From NCBI GenBank assembly GCA_026415985.1, contig JAOAGA010000006.1, forward strand, positions 1 through 38,910: a DNA stretch of 38,910 nt. Direction: 5' to 3'. Below the pieces are notes generated by a model. That model saw only the letters and a list, made by a program, of their open reading frames with translations, had not been told where the DNA came from and did not search any database. This document shows, piece by piece, positions 16,786 to 38,910 of the stretch. Source of the stretch: Pseudomonadota bacterium. Its GTDB lineage: Bacteria; CALINM01. Within the stretch, counting starts at the first letter, position 1, and the number at the start of each line of letters is the position of its first letter. The translations under genes were made by a program, and so were the position numbers.

Positions 16786-17517
16786 ATGAAAAAAATCAGG
16801 GCTGATGAACTGCTTTTTCAGAAAGGTTTGGTAGAATCAAGAAGCAGGGCAAAAACCCTCATTATGATGGGAAAGGTCTATGCAAATGGTGTTAAAGTAG
16901 AAAAGGCAGGAGACAATCTGAATACCGATAGTGAGATTGAGATAAAAGAAGATTTGCCCTATGTCAGTAGAGGTGGGTTAAAACTGGAATCTGCCATAAA
17001 GCACTTTAATATTGATATTAAAAATAAGATTGCCCTCGATATAGGAGCATCAACAGGTGGTTTTACCGATTGTTTATTAAAGTATGGTGCGAAAAAGGTT
17101 TATGCAGTTGATGTCGGATATGGGATACTTGATAACAGACTTCGAGAGGACAAAAGGGTTATAAACATAGAAAAAACAAATTTCAGATATATTGATAAGA
17201 GTCTTATCCCGGAAATAGTTGATTTTATAAGCATTGATGTATCCTTTATCTCCCTTACCCTGATTATTCCCAAGGCATTGGAATTTTTAAAAAAAAATGG
17301 CGAGATTGTTGCCCTGATCAAACCTCAGTTTGAACTTACGCCTAAAGAGGTGGGGAAAGGTGGTGTTGTAAGAGATGAAAAGTTAAGGGAGAAAGCGGTA
17401 GATAAGATAAAAAATTTTTCCCAATCATTAGGCTTAACTATCATTGGGATTATCCCCTCCCCTGTTTCAGGGCAGAAAGGCAACAAAGAATTTTTGTTAT
17501 ATGCGGTCAATATTTAA
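16786..17517 (+). CDS. tlyA: TlyA family rRNA (cytidine-2'-O)-methyltransferase
   Basis: 243 residues with an N-terminal S4 RNA-binding domain (about 1-62, RADELLFQKGLVESRSRAKT) and a C-terminal Rossmann methyltransferase. The SAM-binding motif is ALDIGASTGGFTDCLL, followed by DVGYG and a SIDVSFISL segment; KPQFE lies near the end. TlyA proteins methylate ribose of 16S and/or 23S rRNA, and older annotation calls them hemolysins. It begins immediately after the dxs stop. Its 3' end overlaps by 11 bases the end of the converging minus-strand oligosaccharyltransferase gene, so there is no room for an intergenic terminator between the two operons. Confidence 0.93.
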   Translation: MKKIRADELLFQKGLVESRSRAKTLIMMGKVYANGVKVEKAGDNLNTDSEIEIKEDLPYVSRGGLKLESAIKHFNIDIKNKIALDIGASTGGFTDCLLKYGAKKVYAVDVGYGILDNRLREDKRVINIEKTNFRYIDKSLIPEIVDFISIDVSFISLTLIIPKALEFLKKNGEIVALIKPQFELTPKEVGKGGVVRDEKLREKAVDKIKNFSQSLGLTIIGIIPSPVSGQKGNKEFLLYAVNI

Positions 17518-19570
17518 TCTCTATAGTTTTACCTTCTGTTACATCTTCTTCTTTTATGTTTAGGGGTATTTTACTGCCGTTTAGTTCAAGGTTGACTAAC
17601 TCTGCCTTTACAGGGTAGGGGCTGTCTAAACTGTAGGGGACATTAAAGATCCTCCCGTTTTCAGCGGGTTCTCCCAAACTTATGTAAAAAAAGGTGTTGT
17701 ATGGAGTTTTTATCAGCATTTTCAGTAGGGGGTTTTTGTTTCCTCTGTATATTATTTTGGCAGATTTTACTCTTTCAAATATTTTTATATTTTTCTTCTT
17801 GGAAGATTCGTATATGAGTCTCAAATTTTTGGGGGTATTCTGAAAGGGTGGAGTAATGCCATAAAAATGGTACAGATTAAAAAGAAAAAGTTCTGATGCC
17901 TTTGAGTTGATGTTTTTGTTTTTATCAATATAGGGATTTTTCTCACTGCTTATGGCATACCAGTCAGTTATTATATTCTCATCGGGATTTTCAAGGATAA
18001 GGTATCTGCTTTTATTCCTGTCAATAATTTTTAATACCTCATCTTCTCTCTTTGAGAAAAGGGCATTGATAAACTCTTTCTCACCACTATTTATGGCAAC
18101 ATTGATAAAGTTATGGGCCACTGCTGGTCTTTTTGCTATCTCTATAATGTAATGACCTAAATGCCAGCTTGCAAGCACACCATAGGGAGTTTCACCCTTT
18201 TCGAATTTTTCCTTATACGGTGTTGTTTCTCTTAAAAAGATAAGGGAGTTTTTTATCTCTTCACTTAAAAACCTTTCGGAACTTGTTTTTAAATCTCTGT
18301 AAAATATTATTGAAGTTATAACTAAAAAAACTACGATTAAAATTTTAAGATGTTTCTCCAAAAGATCTTTTAAAACCACTGCTATCATAAAAGAATAGCC
18401 CAAAGTAAAAAAATATCCGAATCTGAGCTGAATAAGTGTTAACAGTAAAAAAAAGAGACAGTAGAAGAAAACTAAATCGGCGCCACGTTTTTTATAGTAT
18501 TTATAAATAAAATAGGGAGAAAGAAAGATAAAAGGGGTAAACAAGGAGATTGCCCTTTTTAGTTCATCGTAAAGACTATAAAATCTGCTAAAAAAAAGTG
18601 GGGAACTTTCCTCTATAAGTATCATTAACTTATCGCCCTTTGTAACGAACATAAGTCCTTTGAAAATCTCATAAAAGAGTCTATGGAACATAAGCCCAAT
18701 GATTATTGCATTACCGAGCCAGAGTAATAGCCTGTTTATCCTTTTTGTTTTGTGAAAGTAAAGGGTAATAAAGACAACCGATATAAAAAAACAGAAATCT
18801 CTCTGAAAGGCCGATAGAAACTTATATGAGTATGGTGGAAAATCATTGGTTTTTGTTATTTTTAAATATACAGCCATAACAATTGCTGTTATATGAAAGG
18901 CTACAAAAAGCCCTTTCAGTATTCTGTCATCAAGGTTTTCCTTAAGGAACTCATAAATTACAAACATAAAGACAGGAACAAAGTAAATTAAGGCACCGGG
19001 CCAGTTAAAGAATGATAAGACACAAAAAAATGAGAAGAGAAGAAGAGATGGGATATCTTTTTTTGTAAAGTATCTGAAAAAGGTCAGATAAAGGAGCGTT
19101 ATTATGAGTAACTCCATGGAATGATGGTCGAATCTGCCGAAGGATGTAAAAAGATATAGGATGCCTGTTATTGAAAGAAAAACTGATGTGGTCAGTGATG
19201 TTGTTATCCCTTCCTTTTTATAGACAGAGAAATAGATAATAGTAAGAGCAAGAAAAAAATAAAAAGGGTTAAGAAAAGGTATTATTCTTGTGTCAGAAAT
19301 AATCTTTGTTATTCCTGCCGATAAAAAATCATAGAAAGGCGGCCAGGGACAATAATCACCTCTCGGATACGACAGGAAGGGATCAAAATCAAGCATTTTG
19401 GGAAAGTTGTTTAGGGTATATAAAACCCTTCTTAAGTGATAATAACTGTCGGGGTCAATGAGATTCAGAAAATTATTCTCATAAACATAAGGATATGTTG
19501 AGAATCTTAATAAAAAATAGGATATGGTTACTATAAAAAATATGAAGTAATGACGATATTTCTCAACCAT
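17507..19570 (-). CDS. STT3/PglB-type oligosaccharyltransferase (GT66-like)
   Basis: A 687-residue polytopic membrane protein with about a dozen hydrophobic helices over the first 430 residues and a soluble C-terminal part. The first external loop has the metal-binding signature IDPDSYYHLRRV (D39, D41) expected of STT3/PglB enzymes, which move a lipid-linked glycan to asparagine on exported proteins. The residues occupying the WWDYG position appear to be SWHLGHYI (W469, H470, G472, H473), so the sequon-binding motif is altered. That is odd enough to leave acceptor specificity open. It is the last gene of a leftward operon with two glycosyltransferases; its ATG shares a base with the upstream stop (TAATG). 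A GT39-like enzyme with other acceptors is the alternative. Confidence 0.8.
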   Translation of the reverse strand: MVEKYRHYFIFFIVTISYFLLRFSTYPYVYENNFLNLIDPDSYYHLRRVLYTLNNFPKMLDFDPFLSYPRGDYCPWPPFYDFLSAGITKIISDTRIIPFLNPFYFFLALTIIYFSVYKKEGITTSLTTSVFLSITGILYLFTSFGRFDHHSMELLIITLLYLTFFRYFTKKDIPSLLLFSFFCVLSFFNWPGALIYFVPVFMFVIYEFLKENLDDRILKGLFVAFHITAIVMAVYLKITKTNDFPPYSYKFLSAFQRDFCFFISVVFITLYFHKTKRINRLLLWLGNAIIIGLMFHRLFYEIFKGLMFVTKGDKLMILIEESSPLFFSRFYSLYDELKRAISLFTPFIFLSPYFIYKYYKKRGADLVFFYCLFFLLLTLIQLRFGYFFTLGYSFMIAVVLKDLLEKHLKILIVVFLVITSIIFYRDLKTSSERFLSEEIKNSLIFLRETTPYKEKFEKGETPYGVLASWHLGHYIIEIAKRPAVAHNFINVAINSGEKEFINALFSKREDEVLKIIDRNKSRYLILENPDENIITDWYAISSEKNPYIDKNKNINSKASELFLFNLYHFYGITPPFQNTPKNLRLIYESSKKKNIKIFERVKSAKIIYRGNKNPLLKMLIKTPYNTFFYISLGEPAENGRIFNVPYSLDSPYPVKAELVNLELNGSKIPLNIKEEDVTEGKTIEIKY

Positions 19571-32011: not shown

Positions 32012-33206
32012 AGAAGCTAAAAGTATTATTCTTAGCCAAACTTATGAAACTGAGGAAGAAGAAATTATATTTTCACAATCCTTAGGAAGATATACAAGCA
32101 GAGAAATAAAATCACCCTTTAATATCCCCAATTTTGACAACTCAGCAATGGATGGTTTTGCTGTTAAATCATCAATACTCTCATCGGCATCACCGGAAAA
32201 TCCTGTTAAACTTAAGATTGTCGATGAAATATGGGCAGGTAAAATACCTAAGGTAAGTATCAGTTCAGAAAACTGTGTGAAAATTTATACCGGTGCCATT
32301 GTGCCGGAAGGTGCCGATGCCATTGTCAGAAAAGAAGATGTATCCGTTGACGGAGATATGGCTTTATTTAAAAGTCCTGTGGAAAAAGGTTACGATATAC
32401 GAAAGGAAGGAGAAGAGATAAAAAAGGGAGAGATAGTCATTAATAAAGGTTATAAAATAACTTCTTCTGCAATAGGACTACTTGCCTCATTGATGATAAA
32501 AAAGATAAGAGTTTTCAGAAAACCAAAAGTTTTAATAATTGCCACAGGTTCGGAACTCATAGATATTGAGGAGTCATTTTCTTACGGAAAAATTGTTAAT
32601 AGTAACAGCTACGCTCTTATCTCTATGACCTCAGAATATGGTGCAGAGCCTGTAAACGGCGGAATAGTAAAAGACAGCAGGCAGTCTCTGAAGGAGTGTT
32701 TTAAGAAGATTGATATGGCAGATGTAGTTATTACCACCGGAGGTGTCTCTGTAGGCGACTATGACCTTGTTAAAGATGTCTTTGGTGAACTCGGTGTTAA
32801 CTGGCATTTCTGGAAGGTTAGAATGCGCCCCGGACATCCGGTAGCCTTTGGAACTTACCAAAAAAAGCTTTTTTTTGCCCTGCCGGGTAACCCGGTGTCT
32901 GCAATGGTAACTTATGATCAGTTTGTTTTGCCTGCTATAAAGAAGATGCTTGGGGTGGAAAATTATCAGAGAAAAACTCTCTATGCTATAGTTACCGATG
33001 ATATTAAAAAAAAGGCAGACAGAACACATTTTTTAAGAGGCAAGTTTTATACAAAAGATGGACAATTGTATGTTGATGTTTTTCCAAATCAGTCTTCTTC
33101 TGCAATAAGTTCTATGATTAACTCAAACTGTTATGTTATACTTGAAGAGGGTAACACAAGAATAAAGAGAGGTGAGAAGGCTCTCATTGAGCTGTTTGAA
33201 AGTTGA
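31986..33206 (+). CDS. moeA: Molybdopterin molybdenumtransferase
   Basis: Inserts molybdenum into adenylylated molybdopterin to form Mo cofactor (the same fold can act with tungsten). 406 residues, typical length. Marks seen: FDNSAMDGFAV, TGAIVPEGADAIVRKEDV, the substrate-binding TTGGVSVGDYD, RPGHPVAFG and LPGNPVSAMVTYDQFVLPA, plus a C-terminal beta domain (LRGKFYTKDGQLYVDVFPNQ). The first in-frame ATG lies 26 bases inside mltD and puts the conserved SVKEAKSII at the expected distance. Presence of MoeA implies Mo- or W-enzymes in this organism. The next gene starts on its stop codon. Confidence 0.95.
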   Translation: MLKEQISVKEAKSIILSQTYETEEEEIIFSQSLGRYTSREIKSPFNIPNFDNSAMDGFAVKSSILSSASPENPVKLKIVDEIWAGKIPKVSISSENCVKIYTGAIVPEGADAIVRKEDVSVDGDMALFKSPVEKGYDIRKEGEEIKKGEIVINKGYKITSSAIGLLASLMIKKIRVFRKPKVLIIATGSELIDIEESFSYGKIVNSNSYALISMTSEYGAEPVNGGIVKDSRQSLKECFKKIDMADVVITTGGVSVGDYDLVKDVFGELGVNWHFWKVRMRPGHPVAFGTYQKKLFFALPGNPVSAMVTYDQFVLPAIKKMLGVENYQRKTLYAIVTDDIKKKADRTHFLRGKFYTKDGQLYVDVFPNQSSSAISSMINSNCYVILEEGNTRIKRGEKALIELFES

Positions 33207-33961
33207 CAGAAAGAGCATATTTCATAGAAGACAAGCAAGCTTTTTCCTTACTACCAAAAACTGCAGACAGAATATATACGGGTTCTGATTATTGTATAAA
33301 AGCTTTTCCAAAATACTTTTCCTCTTTTTTGAAATTACTGAAAAAGACAGCCCCTGTGAGCCTGCTTATACCACCGCTATTGGAAAGCGAGATTAAACTT
33401 TTTCATAAATATTTAGAAAAATTTACAGATCTGGCTAATGAAGAAGACGAGATTATCTGTAACGATCTCGGTGCCTTAAAGGTCTTGAGCTCTTTGAGTA
33501 TAAGAGACAGGTTTAAAATCGGGTTGGGCAGGTTTTACTCCTACCAAAAAAGGGGTGTTCAGAAACTCTATGATGCAGTTAAAGCAGAAGATTTGATGGA
33601 TATTCCGATACTTGATCCCAAAACAATAATTTTTTTAAAAAGTTTAGGCGTTGAAAGGGTAGAAATTGATGCAGTTCCTTATGGTATAAACATTCCGGAT
33701 GATATTGATATAAAAATAAGTCTTTATGAAGATAACCTACTTACCAGTTATACGATAAACTGCCCCCATACCTTTAACGGTAGATACTGGGGTAGGGAGT
33801 GCAAAAGACAATGCATGCTCTCATATATTATGGTTCTTTCTTCAGAAGAGATAACAGCTAAAATAGTTGAGCGGGGTAAGGCATATTACCAAAATACTGA
33901 GCCAACAAAGTCTGATAAAATTGATAGAATAGTTAGGTTCATGTGGAAGAATATCAAATAA
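33203..33961 (+). CDS. Peptidase U32-family protein, UbiV-like, predicted [4Fe-4S] protein
   Basis: 252 residues, start probably the TTG at 33203 that overlaps the moeA stop. Four cysteines are placed as in UbiV: Cys31 in RIYTGSDYC, then Cys187-x12-Cys200-x3-Cys204 (CPHTFNGRYWGRECKRQC). E. coli UbiV binds a [4Fe-4S] cluster through C39, C180, C193 and C197 with the same x12 and x3 spacing, and its first cysteine follows a similar IYLGEAVC. The middle part has the U32-type IICNDLGALKVLSS. U32 proteins work in anaerobic quinone hydroxylation and in RNA hydroxylation rather than as proteases. A UbiU partner is not visible next to it, so the substrate is open. Confidence 0.72.
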   Translation: MTERAYFIEDKQAFSLLPKTADRIYTGSDYCIKAFPKYFSSFLKLLKKTAPVSLLIPPLLESEIKLFHKYLEKFTDLANEEDEIICNDLGALKVLSSLSIRDRFKIGLGRFYSYQKRGVQKLYDAVKAEDLMDIPILDPKTIIFLKSLGVERVEIDAVPYGINIPDDIDIKISLYEDNLLTSYTINCPHTFNGRYWGRECKRQCMLSYIMVLSSEEITAKIVERGKAYYQNTEPTKSDKIDRIVRFMWKNIK

Positions 33962-34689
33962 CCGAGATAACTCAAAGGATAATCTCAGTAACCGACAGGA
34001 AACTGAGAGCATTTATTTTATCTGAGAAATTCCAGACACTTAATATTGATGAGATAAAGGATTTTCTTGAGAAAACCGTTATTGATGTATTTGAAAACAA
34101 AACATCTGCATTACAGATAGTTTTTACATTTGTTGATATACTTGAAAGGGTATATGAGATTGAGATAAAAAAAAGTTTTTATGAAAAATTAGAAAAGATC
34201 AGCACTGAAAATAAGATACTGAACTTGTTGATTGACCCACCTCTGCCACACAAATTTCTGAAAAGAGGAGAGGTTCATACTACAGATATAATGATGGATT
34301 ATCTGCCTTTGGGCATAAAAAGAAGTTTCGCAAAAAAGCTCGACAGGATATTAATAAGGAGAATGTTACTCGAAAAGGATCCCTATGTGGTTAAATATCT
34401 TCTCTCAAATCCTATAATCACAGAAAAAGATGTATTAAAGATAGCATCAGGACGACCGACTAAAGAAGAAGTTATAAAAGTAATATATACATTTGATAAA
34501 TGGATAAATCTCTACTCCGTTAAAGAAGCAATAGTTAAAAACCCCTATTCTCCCTTCAGACTGTCTCTGTTAATGCTTTTTTTTATGCAACAAAGGGAGC
34601 TTAGGACAATACATTCTGACAATACCCTGCATCCTGTAATAAGAGAAATCGCAAAAGAGATAATAGACAGGCGAAACTATTTAAAATAG
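33943..34689 (+). CDS. HEAT-like helical repeat protein of unknown function
   Basis: 248 residues from a GTG that overlaps the upstream gene by 19 bases. No signal peptide or membrane helix. The N-terminal half is helical without clear motifs. The C-terminal half has two helical-repeat units, KDPYVVKYLLSNPIITEKDV and VKEAIVKNPYSPFRLSLLML, with RPTKEEVIKVI between them. The repeated NP turns, the RPT element and the closing LHPVIREIAKEII are a pattern I recall from uncharacterised HEAT-like proteins of deltaproteobacteria, usually single-copy and next to housekeeping genes. It is probably a protein-binding scaffold. Nothing indicates the partner, and a functional tie to the U32 protein is only positional. 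Confidence 0.65.
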   Translation: MEEYQITEITQRIISVTDRKLRAFILSEKFQTLNIDEIKDFLEKTVIDVFENKTSALQIVFTFVDILERVYEIEIKKSFYEKLEKISTENKILNLLIDPPLPHKFLKRGEVHTTDIMMDYLPLGIKRSFAKKLDRILIRRMLLEKDPYVVKYLLSNPIITEKDVLKIASGRPTKEEVIKVIYTFDKWINLYSVKEAIVKNPYSPFRLSLLMLFFMQQRELRTIHSDNTLHPVIREIAKEIIDRRNYLK

Positions 34690-34698
34690 AATTTCTAT

Positions 34699-34968
34699 AT
34701 GAAAAAAACAAAACAAAAAATGTTAGATGAGTTCGATAAATTCATGCTTGATGAGGAGTTTAGTTTTTACACTATAGCCTTTATGGTAAAACTTTTAGGT
34801 GAAGAATACTATAAAGACTTAATAAAAGACTCTCCTATTGCTCAGGCAGTATTCAACAAATATAAAAAATTACCTGTGAAAAGAAGATTAAAATATGAGA
34901 CAAACATCTATGACAAATATATAAAAGAGATAATGAAACGTAAAAAAACTTTTACCGGTGACAATTAA
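34699..34968 (+). CDS. Small protein of unknown function
   Basis: 89 residues, very rich in Lys, Glu and aromatic residues (FDKFMLDEEFSFYTIAFMVK, KYKKLPVKRRLKYETNIYDK). Mostly helical by appearance, basic at the C-terminus, no signal peptide, membrane helix or cysteine. It begins nine bases after the HEAT-like gene, so it probably belongs to that transcript, although no ribosome binding site is evident before the ATG. I do not recognise a family. It is the last gene before the change of character at about 35 kb. Confidence 0.55.
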   Translation: MKKTKQKMLDEFDKFMLDEEFSFYTIAFMVKLLGEEYYKDLIKDSPIAQAVFNKYKKLPVKRRLKYETNIYDKYIKEIMKRKKTFTGDN

Positions 34969-35271
34969 ATTTTTGAAATATTTCAGTTCAGGATTTTTTT
35001 TTATAATGGCACTTGACATAGAAAAAAAAGTGATTATATTTTTACTTAGTGATTTTTTCATCTCGAGAGCTCATATCTTCTCTTGATTCATGTCTTATCG
35101 TCTGCGTAGACTAATTATTTCAGGCTGAAAAAATAAGATATAAGATTTTTCCATATTCAAAAAAACATTATCTTTGGTTTACAGACGGGGACATTTTGTA
35201 AAAGATTCTTATTCTTTCTATTCTTTCAAAAATTTTTTTAAAGATCAAAATTTAATAAAAAAGGGGTTAAT
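34969..35271 (+). promoter_or_regulatory. 303-base intergenic region: promoter plus long leader
   Basis: A consensus -35 TTGACA (35013-35018), a 16-base gap and TATATT (35035-35040) form the best sigma70 match in the window. Transcription would start near 35047 and leave a leader of about 225 bases before the ATG at 35272. The leader holds a small hairpin (GTCT/AGAC, 35100-35111), an inverted pair TTTACA/TGTAAA (35178-35202) around GACGGGGACATT, and a C/T tract (35205-35227). I cannot match it to a known riboswitch. No tRNA is seen. Confidence 0.55.
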
Positions 35272-36000
35272 ATGCTAAAGCCAATTACTTTAAAAGAGGT
35301 AGTAAGGTTATTTGAAGAGCATATCCCGCAGACTGAGGGCTGGCGTTATTTTAAAAGTGAGACCTATGGTGGGTTTAATATTACTGAAGACATTTCAGAT
35401 AAGCCCTTAAAGCGTGTGTTATATTGTGTTACTGCGTCTGAAGAGCTTGGCAGGTATAGTTTAGAGCACGGTTATGATTTATTATTTGCCCATCATCCTT
35501 TTGTCATACCTGGTGTGCCTATGTTTATAGCCCATACGCCGTTGGATTGTTGTGAGGGCGGGCTGAATGACATATTAGCGGATATTGTAGGTCTAAAAAA
35601 GGAAAGGCATATTGTGGACAATTTAGGCTGGTACGGACATTTAGATGAACCTGATGGGGTTGTGATAGACGAGATAATTGCAAGATTGGAAAGGCATAGT
35701 ATCCCAATAAAGGGCAACATTATCCTTGATGGCAACAGGAATGTTAAAACTGGTGTTGTTTGTAGCGGGCTTGGTGGGCTAATATCAGATGAGGTTATTG
35801 ATTTAAAGCCGGACTTATATGTAACAGGCCAGTTGTCGTATAAGATTTTTCAGATGAATGTTATAGAGTTAGGTCATACGAACAGTGAGCAGATAGGGGT
35901 ATATACCTTAAGAAATATTTTATCTGGCTATGATATAACGGTGGATCTGGCGCCGGTTGAGTTGGATGTTTTTGGCAATGAAATTTTGTCGAGAAACTAA
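35272..36000 (+). CDS. NIF3 (YbgI)-family dinuclear metal protein
   Basis: 242 residues, cytoplasmic. It carries all six ligands of the NIF3/YbgI dinuclear site: His74 and His75 in FAHHPFVIPG, His88 and Asp92 in IAHTPLDCC, and His202 and Glu206 in LGHTNSEQIG. Other family marks are CVTASEE near residue 52 and YVTGQLSYK before the last pair. The family is widespread, of unsettled function, and often mislabelled GTP cyclohydrolase. AAGGGG lies six bases before the ATG. It is preceded by the strongest promoter in the window and heads a set of unknown genes; nothing in housekeeping context adjoins it. The surroundings suggest an accessory copy, but a chromosomal single copy is not excluded. Confidence 0.8.
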   Translation: MLKPITLKEVVRLFEEHIPQTEGWRYFKSETYGGFNITEDISDKPLKRVLYCVTASEELGRYSLEHGYDLLFAHHPFVIPGVPMFIAHTPLDCCEGGLNDILADIVGLKKERHIVDNLGWYGHLDEPDGVVIDEIIARLERHSIPIKGNIILDGNRNVKTGVVCSGLGGLISDEVIDLKPDLYVTGQLSYKIFQMNVIELGHTNSEQIGVYTLRNILSGYDITVDLAPVELDVFGNEILSRN

Positions 36001-36044
36001 ATTTTAGCTAAAAAAAAATTTAAAGATATTAAAGGGGCAAAAAC

Positions 36045-36755
36045 ATGAATACCAACTATCAATATCAGTCAGGGGAATCGAGGCACTATAATGTCAGTTA
36101 TAACAGTAAGGATTATAATGTTGATTTACATATAACCGGGCGGGTTGTATCTAATTTGAATAAAGATCGGGTTATCCCGCCGGATTTTTTTTATAGGAAG
36201 CTTGATGAGGCAATACCTTATATCGTTGAGATTTATGATGCCTTCAGAGAGGATCCAGAGAAGGCGTCAATCAAATATGAATATGCTATGGCAAGTGGCA
36301 GTAACAAAGATTTTTTGAAATTAGATTTAATTGGCAAGAGCAAATCAACTAATATAAACTTCGTTTTTGGGGTGCAGACAGAAGGTGGTGTGGAGGATAA
36401 CAAAATTTTGGTTAAGTTAGTAACGGCGGTGATGAAAGAGAATTACTACCACAAGGAAAATGACTGTGTTTTACCGGAGAAGTTTGGTTCAGTCAGACCT
36501 GATTTTGAGATTGTAATACGTTCAGAGGTATTAGATATGATAGAACCAGGGCTTTACTATGTTCTTAAAGAGTTTATAACAACCGACAAGGTCTTTTATT
36601 ATATTGACAGAAGTAAGCCGGGTGCGTATCTGCTTAAAGATAAAAATGCTTATTATATGATAGATTATGAGGTGGAAGGCGATAAAAAATATTTATATAT
36701 AGACGATGTTAGCTGGCGTTATTATCCGTCTTTTCTTGTATTTGAGACGGAATAA
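36045..36755 (+). CDS. Protein of unknown function downstream of the NIF3-like gene
   Basis: 236 residues that I do not recognise. Tyrosine-rich, with an N-terminal beta-rich stretch (NVSYNSKDYNVDLHITGRVV), a central mixed part and a C-terminal beta-rich region with repeated aromatic pairs (YYMIDYEVEGDKKYLYIDD). No signal peptide, membrane segment or cysteine motif; the only cysteine is in NDCVLPEKFG. AAAGGGG precedes the ATG at a normal distance, and the gap to the NIF3-like gene is 44 bases, so the two are probably co-transcribed. Composition is A/T-rich like the chromosome. It may form a small operon with the NIF3-like gene and the next short gene. Confidence 0.6.
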   Translation: MNTNYQYQSGESRHYNVSYNSKDYNVDLHITGRVVSNLNKDRVIPPDFFYRKLDEAIPYIVEIYDAFREDPEKASIKYEYAMASGSNKDFLKLDLIGKSKSTNINFVFGVQTEGGVEDNKILVKLVTAVMKENYYHKENDCVLPEKFGSVRPDFEIVIRSEVLDMIEPGLYYVLKEFITTDKVFYYIDRSKPGAYLLKDKNAYYMIDYEVEGDKKYLYIDDVSWRYYPSFLVFETE

Positions 36756-36779
36756 AATAAATTTAGAAAGGGGGGTTTA

Positions 36780-37067
36780 ATGAATGCCGAAGTGTTAAAG
36801 AAACAGATTTTTGATAATTTCAATAATGCTCAAGGCATTTATTTGTTTAAAAGGTTCGGGTCGCTAATTATTAAGGAATACTATTATAGAAAAAATAACA
36901 AGAAAGTAATTATTATCTATGACAGAAACCGAAATATTGCTACTACAACGGTAAGGCAGTTTAACATAGAAGAACTTAAAGATTATGATACAGAAGGGAT
37001 AGTCAGGATTAAACCGATAGGGCTAAAAGGTGCCAATGAAGGTAGAATTTCACAGAATAATCGCTGA
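36780..37067 (+). CDS. Small protein of unknown function
   Basis: 95 residues, basic (many Lys and Arg), beta-rich by appearance: QGIYLFKRFGSLIIKEYYY, KKVIIIYDRNRNIATTTV, EGIVRIKPIGLKG. No signal peptide, membrane helix or cysteine. A strong ribosome binding site, AAAGGGGGG, lies just before the ATG, 24 bases after the previous stop. Its 3' end overlaps by 32 bases the start of a broken reading frame in another frame, so the original C-terminus may have been altered by a frameshift. Family unknown. Confidence 0.55.
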   Translation: MNAEVLKKQIFDNFNNAQGIYLFKRFGSLIIKEYYYRKNNKKVIIIYDRNRNIATTTVRQFNIEELKDYDTEGIVRIKPIGLKGANEGRISQNNR

Positions 37068-37337
37068 TCGTGTCATTTTATCAGAAAATTGTTCCTGTCT
37101 TTTACGTATATGCCAATCTATTGCAACCATATCTGAGAAGGTATTAAGATGCTTTGGATGAGCTTGACTTATCTATCATTCTGTTCTCACAGTTAATACG
37201 AAGAATTGAAACTAAGCCAGAGCACAGAATATTTTTTAAAAAGGTATATCTACGAGATGCAGAGTTTTTTTTCTGAAAACTCTCTGAAACAGACACCATC
37301 TCCAATCTTAAGTTACGTTCTGGGGCATCGGTTGTAA
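37036..37337 (+). pseudogene. Broken reading frame with two frameshifts
   Basis: Three overlapping open pieces in different frames read as one protein-like sequence. The first runs from ATG 37036 (MKVEFHRIIADRVILSENC) to SEKVL near 37146. The second starts at 37148 with DALDELDLSIILFSQLIRR and continues through KPEHRIFFKKVYLRDAEFF. The third continues after a run of eight T (37265-37272) with SENSLKQTPSPILSYVLGH to a stop at 37335-37337. Frame changes occur near 37147 and in the T-run. It matches no family I know. Chance cannot be excluded for the outer pieces; the middle one is the most gene-like. Confidence 0.4.
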
Positions 37338-37429
37338 ATTTAAGTGTTTTTTCGTAATCGGTATTAACGGGTAGCAATGTGATATCAAGTTGTTGTTTTA
37401 GTATAAATAAAAAATATAAGGGGGACAAG

Positions 37430-37894
37430 ATGAAACACTACGATCCTACAGAACCAGGTATAATAGCAAAAATATTTAGATGGCTCTGCTGGCTTCTACT
37501 GATATGTTTCTTCATGCAAATCTATATTTACCACATTGAGCCTTTAGCCTATAACCCTAAAGTAGTTAAATTCTTCTATAACTCCCAAAACTTCACCATA
37601 ATTATGTTCGTTATACTTTTCCCTATTGCGGTTCTCCTAATTGCTATTATACTTGAACTAATTACAAATATAGTCAAAATCATCGCTACTAAAATATTCA
37701 ATCCTGACGAACCAATTAAATATACTAAACAACTATTTAGCTTATCAAACACAAAAGACCTATCTATTAGCCTTCTTCACGCTTATAAAGTAGCCGGGAA
37801 AACCTTCGCCATCGCCGTAATGACCGCTGTTGTCATCGGGGTCTTGGATACTATCGCAAGGCAGTTTAGAGAACTTGATAGAAAACAAGATTAA
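37430..37894 (+). CDS. Small integral membrane protein of unknown function
   Basis: 154 residues. I chose the ATG at 37430 because AAGGGGG (37418-37424 region) precedes it; an in-frame ATG at 37379 has no such site. Three hydrophobic segments: about 17-34 (WLCWLLLICFFMQIYIY), a long one at about 53-78 (IIMFVILFPIAVLLIAIILEL) and about 124-139 (FAIAVMTAVVIGVLD). The C-terminus is charged and probably cytoplasmic. No catalytic motif is visible. Codon choice is richer in C-ending and CTA/CTC codons than in the core genes. It lies between broken frames on both sides and appears intact, so it may be under selection. Function unknown. Confidence 0.6.
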   Translation: MKHYDPTEPGIIAKIFRWLCWLLLICFFMQIYIYHIEPLAYNPKVVKFFYNSQNFTIIMFVILFPIAVLLIAIILELITNIVKIIATKIFNPDEPIKYTKQLFSLSNTKDLSISLLHAYKVAGKTFAIAVMTAVVIGVLDTIARQFRELDRKQD

Positions 37895-38192
37895 AACTAA
37901 ACCATTCAAGATGGGGTTTAAATTCCTACGCCAGATCGAGCCTGAAACTGGTTGTTCTCTATAATTATGCTGACCTGTTATATGACGGACACTTAGCATG
38001 TTTAATTTTAAAAGTAAACTCGTCGTTTAATATGGCGTAAGTAAGGACATACTTAATAGCAAAGTTTTTAAAGATATCATTGTCAATAACATTGACGGTA
38101 AAAAAATTAAGGCATTTCCGGATTTGCTTAGAGGCATGCCAATCCAAAATGAGTATTTCGGCGATATCGTAAAGTTAATCAAAAGATCTTAA
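37882..38192 (+). pseudogene. Broken gene with one frameshift
   Basis: One frame is open from 37882 to a stop at 38038-38040 and reads SSLKLVVLYNYADLLYDGH, then LACLILKVNSSFN. A second frame open from 38031 continues YGVSKDILNSKVFKDIIVNN, IDGKKIKAFPDLLRGMP and IQNEYFGDIVKLIKRS to the TAA at 38190-38192. A single extra base near 38028-38031 would join them into one protein of at least 95 residues. No start codon or ribosome binding site remains at the 5' end, so that end is damaged too. The family is not recognised. A phage structural origin was considered but not supported. Confidence 0.6.
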
Positions 38193-38221
38193 ATCTTAAA
38201 AATTTATATAGTAAGGTCAGT

Positions 38222-38250
38222 TTGACTTATAAAATAAGTTGCTATAAAAT
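38222..38250 (+). promoter_or_regulatory. Sigma70-type promoter
   Basis: TTGACT (38222-38227), 17 bases, TAAAAT (38245-38250): one mismatch to consensus in each box. It lies 30 bases after the preceding broken gene and would start transcription near 38257, at the beginning of the next open frame, which has no normal start codon there. It would also transcribe the intact gene at 38568. Confidence 0.55.
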
Positions 38251-38256
38251 ACATAA

Positions 38257-38556
38257 TCTAATATTGTTCAAGTTACTACACGAATATTTAAAGAAAAGGA
38301 CGATATCAAAAATTTTAAGAAAATGACAAGAATTGTATTCTATCTTCTGCGTCCTGATCGCGATAATTCTATCGATAAAATCAATGATCTTGTTTGGGAT
38401 GCAAAAGAGTAGGGAATTTTAGATATGGTTCTCGAAGAAATTGATAAAGAATTCGGTTTTTTTCATAATAATTTAGTTAAAATATTCCAGAAAAACACAT
38501 TTGTGGTCCCACTAACAGAAAAAATAAAAAATGCAGTACAACTACAACTATTATAG
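38257..38556 (+). pseudogene. Reading frame interrupted by an in-frame amber codon
   Basis: The frame open from 38257 reads VTTRIFKEKDDIKNFKK, MTRIVFYLLRPDRDN and SIDKINDLVWDAKE, then meets TAG at 38410-38412. It continues in the same frame as GILDMVLEEIDKEFGFF to IKNAVQLQLL and a second TAG at 38554-38556. Both halves look like one acidic, helical protein of about 97 residues. Only ATT 38263 or the internal ATG 38323 are available as starts, neither with a ribosome binding site. The family is not recognised. Most likely a nonsense mutation in a decaying gene; readthrough is the less likely alternative. Confidence 0.55.
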
Positions 38557-38567
38557 GGGAATGTATT

Positions 38568-38910
38568 ATGGACGAAAAACAGAAGAAAAAATTGATGAGA
38601 AAAATTAAGATTATGAACAGTATCAACAGCACTCCTGTAATTAAGACTCTGTTCGTTATCTTTAATGATATCTTGAATGCTATCTTAAATACCAGAAAAT
38701 CCAGCCTAACACTCGAGTTTACTATACTGCGGTATCGGTACTACCTGCCCGAATCGGTCAACAGAAAAGCACTGTATAAAGCCCTGATCGAACACGGTCT
38801 GCTACCGCAAAACGCTAACGAGATCGTAGATAAACACATCAACAACACAATTAAACCAGAAATAAAGGAAAAGGGAATTCTTAATCTGCTTATCTTTTCT
38901 CCTGTACATA
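38568..38910 (+). CDS. Unknown protein, partial (runs off the right end)
   Basis: 114 codons without a stop from ATG 38568 to the window end. AGGGGA (38555-38560) lies seven bases before the ATG, overlapping the stop of the preceding broken frame. The N-terminus is basic (MDEKQKKKLMRKIKIMN), followed by a hydrophobic-amphipathic stretch (IKTLFVIFNDILNAIL) and a helical region with ESVNRKALYKALIEHGLLP and NANEIVDKHINN. Codon use is unlike the core genes: 7 of 15 leucines are CTG and 8 of 15 isoleucines are ATC, with CGG arginines. This points to foreign origin. No family recognised. Confidence 0.6.
   Translation, partial: MDEKQKKKLMRKIKIMNSINSTPVIKTLFVIFNDILNAILNTRKSSLTLEFTILRYRYYLPESVNRKALYKALIEHGLLPQNANEIVDKHINNTIKPEIKEKGILNLLIFSPVH

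Follow-up and report, generated by a model that had tools for sequence, protein, structure and literature searches.

A horizontally acquired gene block with a compact DUF34/NIF3 protein at a synteny breakpoint of a Pseudomonadota bacterium

We show, short of read-level proof, that a contig of a Pseudomonadota bacterium ends in a horizontally acquired block, which takes up all of it beyond about 35.0 kb and starts at a synteny breakpoint. The window, i.e., the whole stretch of DNA that was analysed, is the entire contig of 38,910 bases (C128), taken from a genome of 1.57 Mb in 161 contigs that is 84% complete. Its last position, 38910, is an assembly end inside the block and no biological boundary. 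Most likely, the block belongs to a large element derived from a tailed phage, an origin to which we give about even credence and which is deduced mainly from one gene, encoding a protein of the DUF34/NIF3 family. The features of the block and of the gene before it are as follows.

34699-34968, + strand: last host-like gene, 89 aa, no assigned function (codon score in the host range)
34969-35271: AT-rich junction and intergenic stretch, 25% GC (composition)
35272-36000, + strand: compact DUF34/NIF3 protein of 242 aa, the genome's second copy (PF01784, alignments, tree)
36045-36755, + strand: orphan protein, 236 aa (intact frame, GGGG site)
36780-37067, + strand: orphan protein, 95 aa (intact frame, G-rich ribosome site)
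37068-37429: gap of 362 bases without a convincing + strand gene (frame statistics)
37430-37894, + strand: orphan small membrane protein, 154 aa, from the ATG at 37430 to a stop that ends at 37894 (intact frame)
37895-38567: gap of 673 bases, containing the second and third of the frames earlier taken as broken (frame statistics)
38568-38910 and beyond, + strand: orphan protein of at least 114 aa, open past the contig end (intact frame)

Composition and genomic context of the block

The preliminary description of this DNA had noticed a change of character from about 35 kb, which is borne out by both codon usage and translation starts. With codon statistics learnt from 334 genes on a subset of the host contigs, each of the five block genes scores below every length-matched host gene (percentile 0.0), and their mean score (0.012) is lower than that of any of the 195 stretches of five adjacent host genes, the lowest of which reaches 0.087. 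The motif GGGG is found upstream of the start in 5/5 block genes (e.g., AAAAAAGGGGTTAAT-ATG and TTAAAGGGGCAAAAAC-ATG) against 23/334 host genes (Fisher p=2.7e-6), the host starts being placed by a first-ATG rule and hence approximate, which mainly touches the background rate of these sites. That this start signature is common to the five genes suggests one shared source. The same description had listed the NIF3-like gene, the genes at 36045 and 36780 and the membrane protein as intact, with strong ribosome sites. We find the same, the sites being G-rich, and a fifth frame (38568-38910 and onwards) is also open.

A comparison with related genomes had been proposed as a check, and the block is indeed missing at the locus in the two genomes compared (G001 and G002), which are of the same family and another genus. 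The unknown genes at 33203 and 33943 are present in the same order in both; G002 also has an mltC-like gene and moeA, and in G001 the contig starts within the first shared unknown gene. After these genes, the sister genomes encode tatA, tRNA-Sec, cobQ and xerC (in G002 also hslV and hslU) instead of the block, and the conserved locus has no gene of the segment in either genome. The last host-like gene (34699-34968) has no tblastn match at the sister-genus loci. The host's cobQ-xerC-hslVU opens another contig (C95), behind a fragment resembling a nucleotide-sugar epimerase or GDP-fucose synthase, and its tatA and tRNA-Sec are on a third one (C143), adjoining a Sua5-like gene. Since the relatives differ here and the host tatA, tRNA-Sec and cobQ are on other contigs, the start of the block is a synteny breakpoint of the lineage. 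The segment is both missing in close relatives and compositionally foreign, the two marks by which we recognise a horizontal block.

Some observations concern the rest of the window and of the host genome. tatA with tRNA-Sec (L050:424-730) and cobQ (L034:1-558) are on separate host contigs and have other neighbours than in the sister genus, i.e., there is a lineage-specific rearrangement around tRNA-Sec in the host. The gene at 33943-34689 has a weak second relative in the host and in both sister genomes (24-27% identity over the C-terminal 105 residues), and possibly represents a lineage-specific family without a Pfam match. The sole tRNA predicted in the window, a tRNA-Val of 95 nt (17574-17668), is inside a minus-strand gene for a 687-aa membrane protein (17507-19570); this length is unusual for a tRNA-Val, and the prediction may be false.

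A compact NIF3 protein and its relative in a jumbo phage

Proteins of the DUF34/NIF3 family occur almost universally and their function is disputed; two bound metal ions and a hexameric toroid are marks of the family. The product of 35272-36000 matches its profile (PF01784, DUF34_NIF3) with E=3e-28 and 99.6 bits, against a gathering score of 23.4, and family alignments indicate that the metal ligands H74, H75, D92, H202 and E206 are kept. Its score for the YbgI/SA1388 equivalog (TIGR00486) is 79.4 bits, under the cut-off of 130.55. It has the same domain and the same dinuclear metal ligands as YbgI and the HcgD/MJ0927 type, but is about 30% identical to them over parts and is devoid of the stretch between HHP and HTPLD. 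The host's own canonical NIF3, encoded on contig C83, is of the same Pfam family, but it is 362 aa long, bears a central PII-like insert, as in both sister genomes, and is far from the window copy in the tree. This tree, built from 24 NIF3 proteins, places the host copy with the sister genus (100/100) and unites the window and phage copies on a long stem, also with 100/100 support.

The NIF3 of the window is a rare compact form. Cellular relatives among the genomes sampled are about 30-40% identical over parts, the sampling consisting of 386 genomes searched by profile and of all GTDB r220 searched by exact 8-residue patterns only. Compact second paralogs are found in two bacteria (G012 and G299) and are not close to the window copy in the tree. 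In two genomes of one bacterial family (L006:1345-2049 and L073:1144-1854), a compact second NIF3 of another divergent branch is part of a conserved four-gene cluster that includes a ThiF/MoeB-like protein. The window NIF3 has no PHROG match. A Pseudomonas match to its N-terminus, covering 31 residues without a corresponding gene, was set aside as chance, and the matches in GenBank phages are weak (E of 3e-5 or worse), concern unannotated fragments or YbgI, and are probably chromosomal DNA.

The search of IMG/VR, with a profile made using two short bacterial forms, gave one good relative (42% identity, E=2e-37), encoded in a contig of 236 kb (IMGVR_UViG_3300045125_000168, L079). No other close relative of the window copy emerged within the sampling done. 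The two proteins are 45-46% identical in two aligned pieces and have in common the motifs GYDLLxxHHPF, LDCCEGGLND and GHTNSE, the first two of which occur nowhere else in the 2.9-million-contig collection. The viral contig encodes a major head protein, a baseplate wedge, a tail fibre and HNH endonucleases, and the presence of head, baseplate and tail genes on 236 kb identifies it as a jumbo tailed phage. In the region L079:4902-6766, its NIF3 directly follows a CobT-VWA gene, and a CbbQ/NorQ/CobS-type AAA+ gene is about 3 kb from the NIF3. As deposited, the phage CobT and NIF3 are each split across frames, and the NIF3 pieces were used for comparison only. The phage contig differs from the block in its 47% GC, in having NIF3 beside CobT- and CobS/NorQ-like genes, and in lacking the block's other four genes; the GGGG start style, present in 3/79 of its genes, is not common to phage and block either.

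Profile searches of the four intact products had been suggested earlier, and among these NIF3 matches PF01784 and the other three have no match. Together with the fifth gene, these orphans (36045, 36780, 37430 and 38568) are without a relative in Pfam, PHROGs, NCBIfam, PADLOC and PDB, and without one in IMG/VR by exact-pattern search. The gene at 36045 has no relative in GenBank phages or plasmids, that at 37430 no clear one in plasmids, those at 38568 and 36780 none in GenBank phages, and those at 36045 and 37430 none in the sampled genomes. The 36780 product is modelled, with modest confidence, as a helix and four strands, for which fold searches gave no match at E<=0.001; the model of 36045 was discarded (pLDDT 38). 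A weak similarity between 38568 and a frame on host contig C100, over 33 residues beside CRISPR-type genes, was taken as chance. This contig carries cas6-, cas1- and type III-associated CRISPR-like genes, judged by eye (L061:8433-14913). Spacers against the segment were also considered, and the contigs examined contain no CRISPR array.

NIF3 alone thus links the block to the phage, and we infer the phage origin of the whole from this one gene, which does not prove it. Alternatively, the block could be a small set of genes that came from a bacterium or archaeon not yet sampled, i.e., an ordinary genomic island, the phage having gained its NIF3 subfamily independently. This single tie and the existence of compact second paralogs in bacteria, even if distant in the tree, agree with such an island, but the phage NIF3 is by far the closest found and the neighbouring genes are small orphans without a bacterial relative in the samples searched, so that we regard the island as a possible but doubtful source and favour the phage-derived element.

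The left junction and the gaps between genes

There are no attachment repeats of note at the left junction (the right side is outside the assembly), tRNA prediction places no tRNA there, and no match to Rfam reaches the gathering threshold. The assembly is fragmented, the composition shifts sharply at a single point close to a contig end, and the block genes have no second location in the rest of the host genome. These facts would fit a chimeric contig, in which a fragment of a phage or of another organism was joined to host DNA near 35.0 kb. We think this unlikely because a complete gene precedes the junction, itself unremarkable AT-rich intergenic DNA, and because gene order in the relatives also departs at the breakpoint, a coincidence not required of a random chimera. 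An acquisition by the host lineage, most likely in a phage-derived element, remains our preferred reading.

The preliminary description had seen three broken frames (37036-37337, 37882-38192 and 38257-38556) and, from them, a decaying mobile element that keeps a few selected genes. We took 1,000 dinucleotide shuffles as the null for frame lengths. In the larger gap (37895-38567), neither the longest open frame (p=0.30) nor the longest with one inner stop (p=0.17) exceeds the chance level. The smaller gap (37068-37429) has its longest frame on the minus strand (37144-37428, 94 codons, p=0.01 against the shuffles), unlike the + strand frame that had been named. The frame at 38257-38556 is interrupted by a single TAG, at 38410. 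Recoding of TAG or TGA was tried for the broken frames: TAG as glutamine opens 38257-38595, but it was rejected because the next TAG is in the ribosome site of the following gene and the frame runs through its start. The gap fragments have no match to any family.

What stands of the mobile element is its acquired nature, given the codon usage, the ribosome-site signature, the synteny breakpoint and the extra phage-like NIF3. Decay with survivors kept by selection is improbable among the readings weighed here, since the two gaps, the one minus-strand frame longer than chance and the frame with one TAG, which speak for it, are set against frames at chance length in the larger gap, fragments that match nothing, and a stop that glutamine does not rescue. 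Nor is there an integrase, transposase, terminase or structural gene in the 4-kb segment, where the contig stops inside the block.

A possible role in metal insertion

The genes at 35272-37067 resemble a short operon, whose transcription may start from a promoter-like site (TTGACA-16-TATATT, 35013-35040) that lies upstream of the NIF3 gene and has 11/12 positions in common with the consensus, as a consensus match only. Near-consensus promoters had been reported for the segment, but the overall number of promoter-like sites, 24, is no higher than expected (19.1 +/- 4.2).

CobS/CobT-like AAA+/VWA pairs insert metals, as in cobaltochelatase and related systems. The kept ligands make it likely that the NIF3-like protein has the same metal role as the rest of the DUF34 family: by extension from the family, it probably binds a pair of metal ions with H74/H75/D92/H202/E206 and passes metal on to a metalloprotein or cofactor, as a chaperone or insertase. 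The CobT/CobS neighbourhood of the phage copy fits metal insertion driven by the AAA+/VWA pair. Members of DUF34, which hold two metal ions, have been put forward as metal insertases, chaperones or cofactor maturases, a proposal with biochemical support from the methanogen HcgD (PMC8469502). A survey in 2021 retrieved a single viral DUF34/NIF3 protein, that of a eukaryotic giant virus (PMC8469502).

If the block is part of a tailed-phage-derived element, we can tentatively envisage that a virus-borne DUF34/NIF3 subfamily and CobS/CobT-like AAA+/VWA proteins constitute a metal-insertion module of large phages, brought here with orphans that act together with it, although we hold this to be rather less probable than the phage origin itself. 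NIF3 aside, the segment is a horizontally acquired block of the ordinary kind, made up of orphan genes. The recipient bacterium also keeps its own NIF3, and the compact phage NIF3 beside CobT/CobS-like genes, together with the bacterial sister copy, provides a small testable system for the metal-insertase role of the family.
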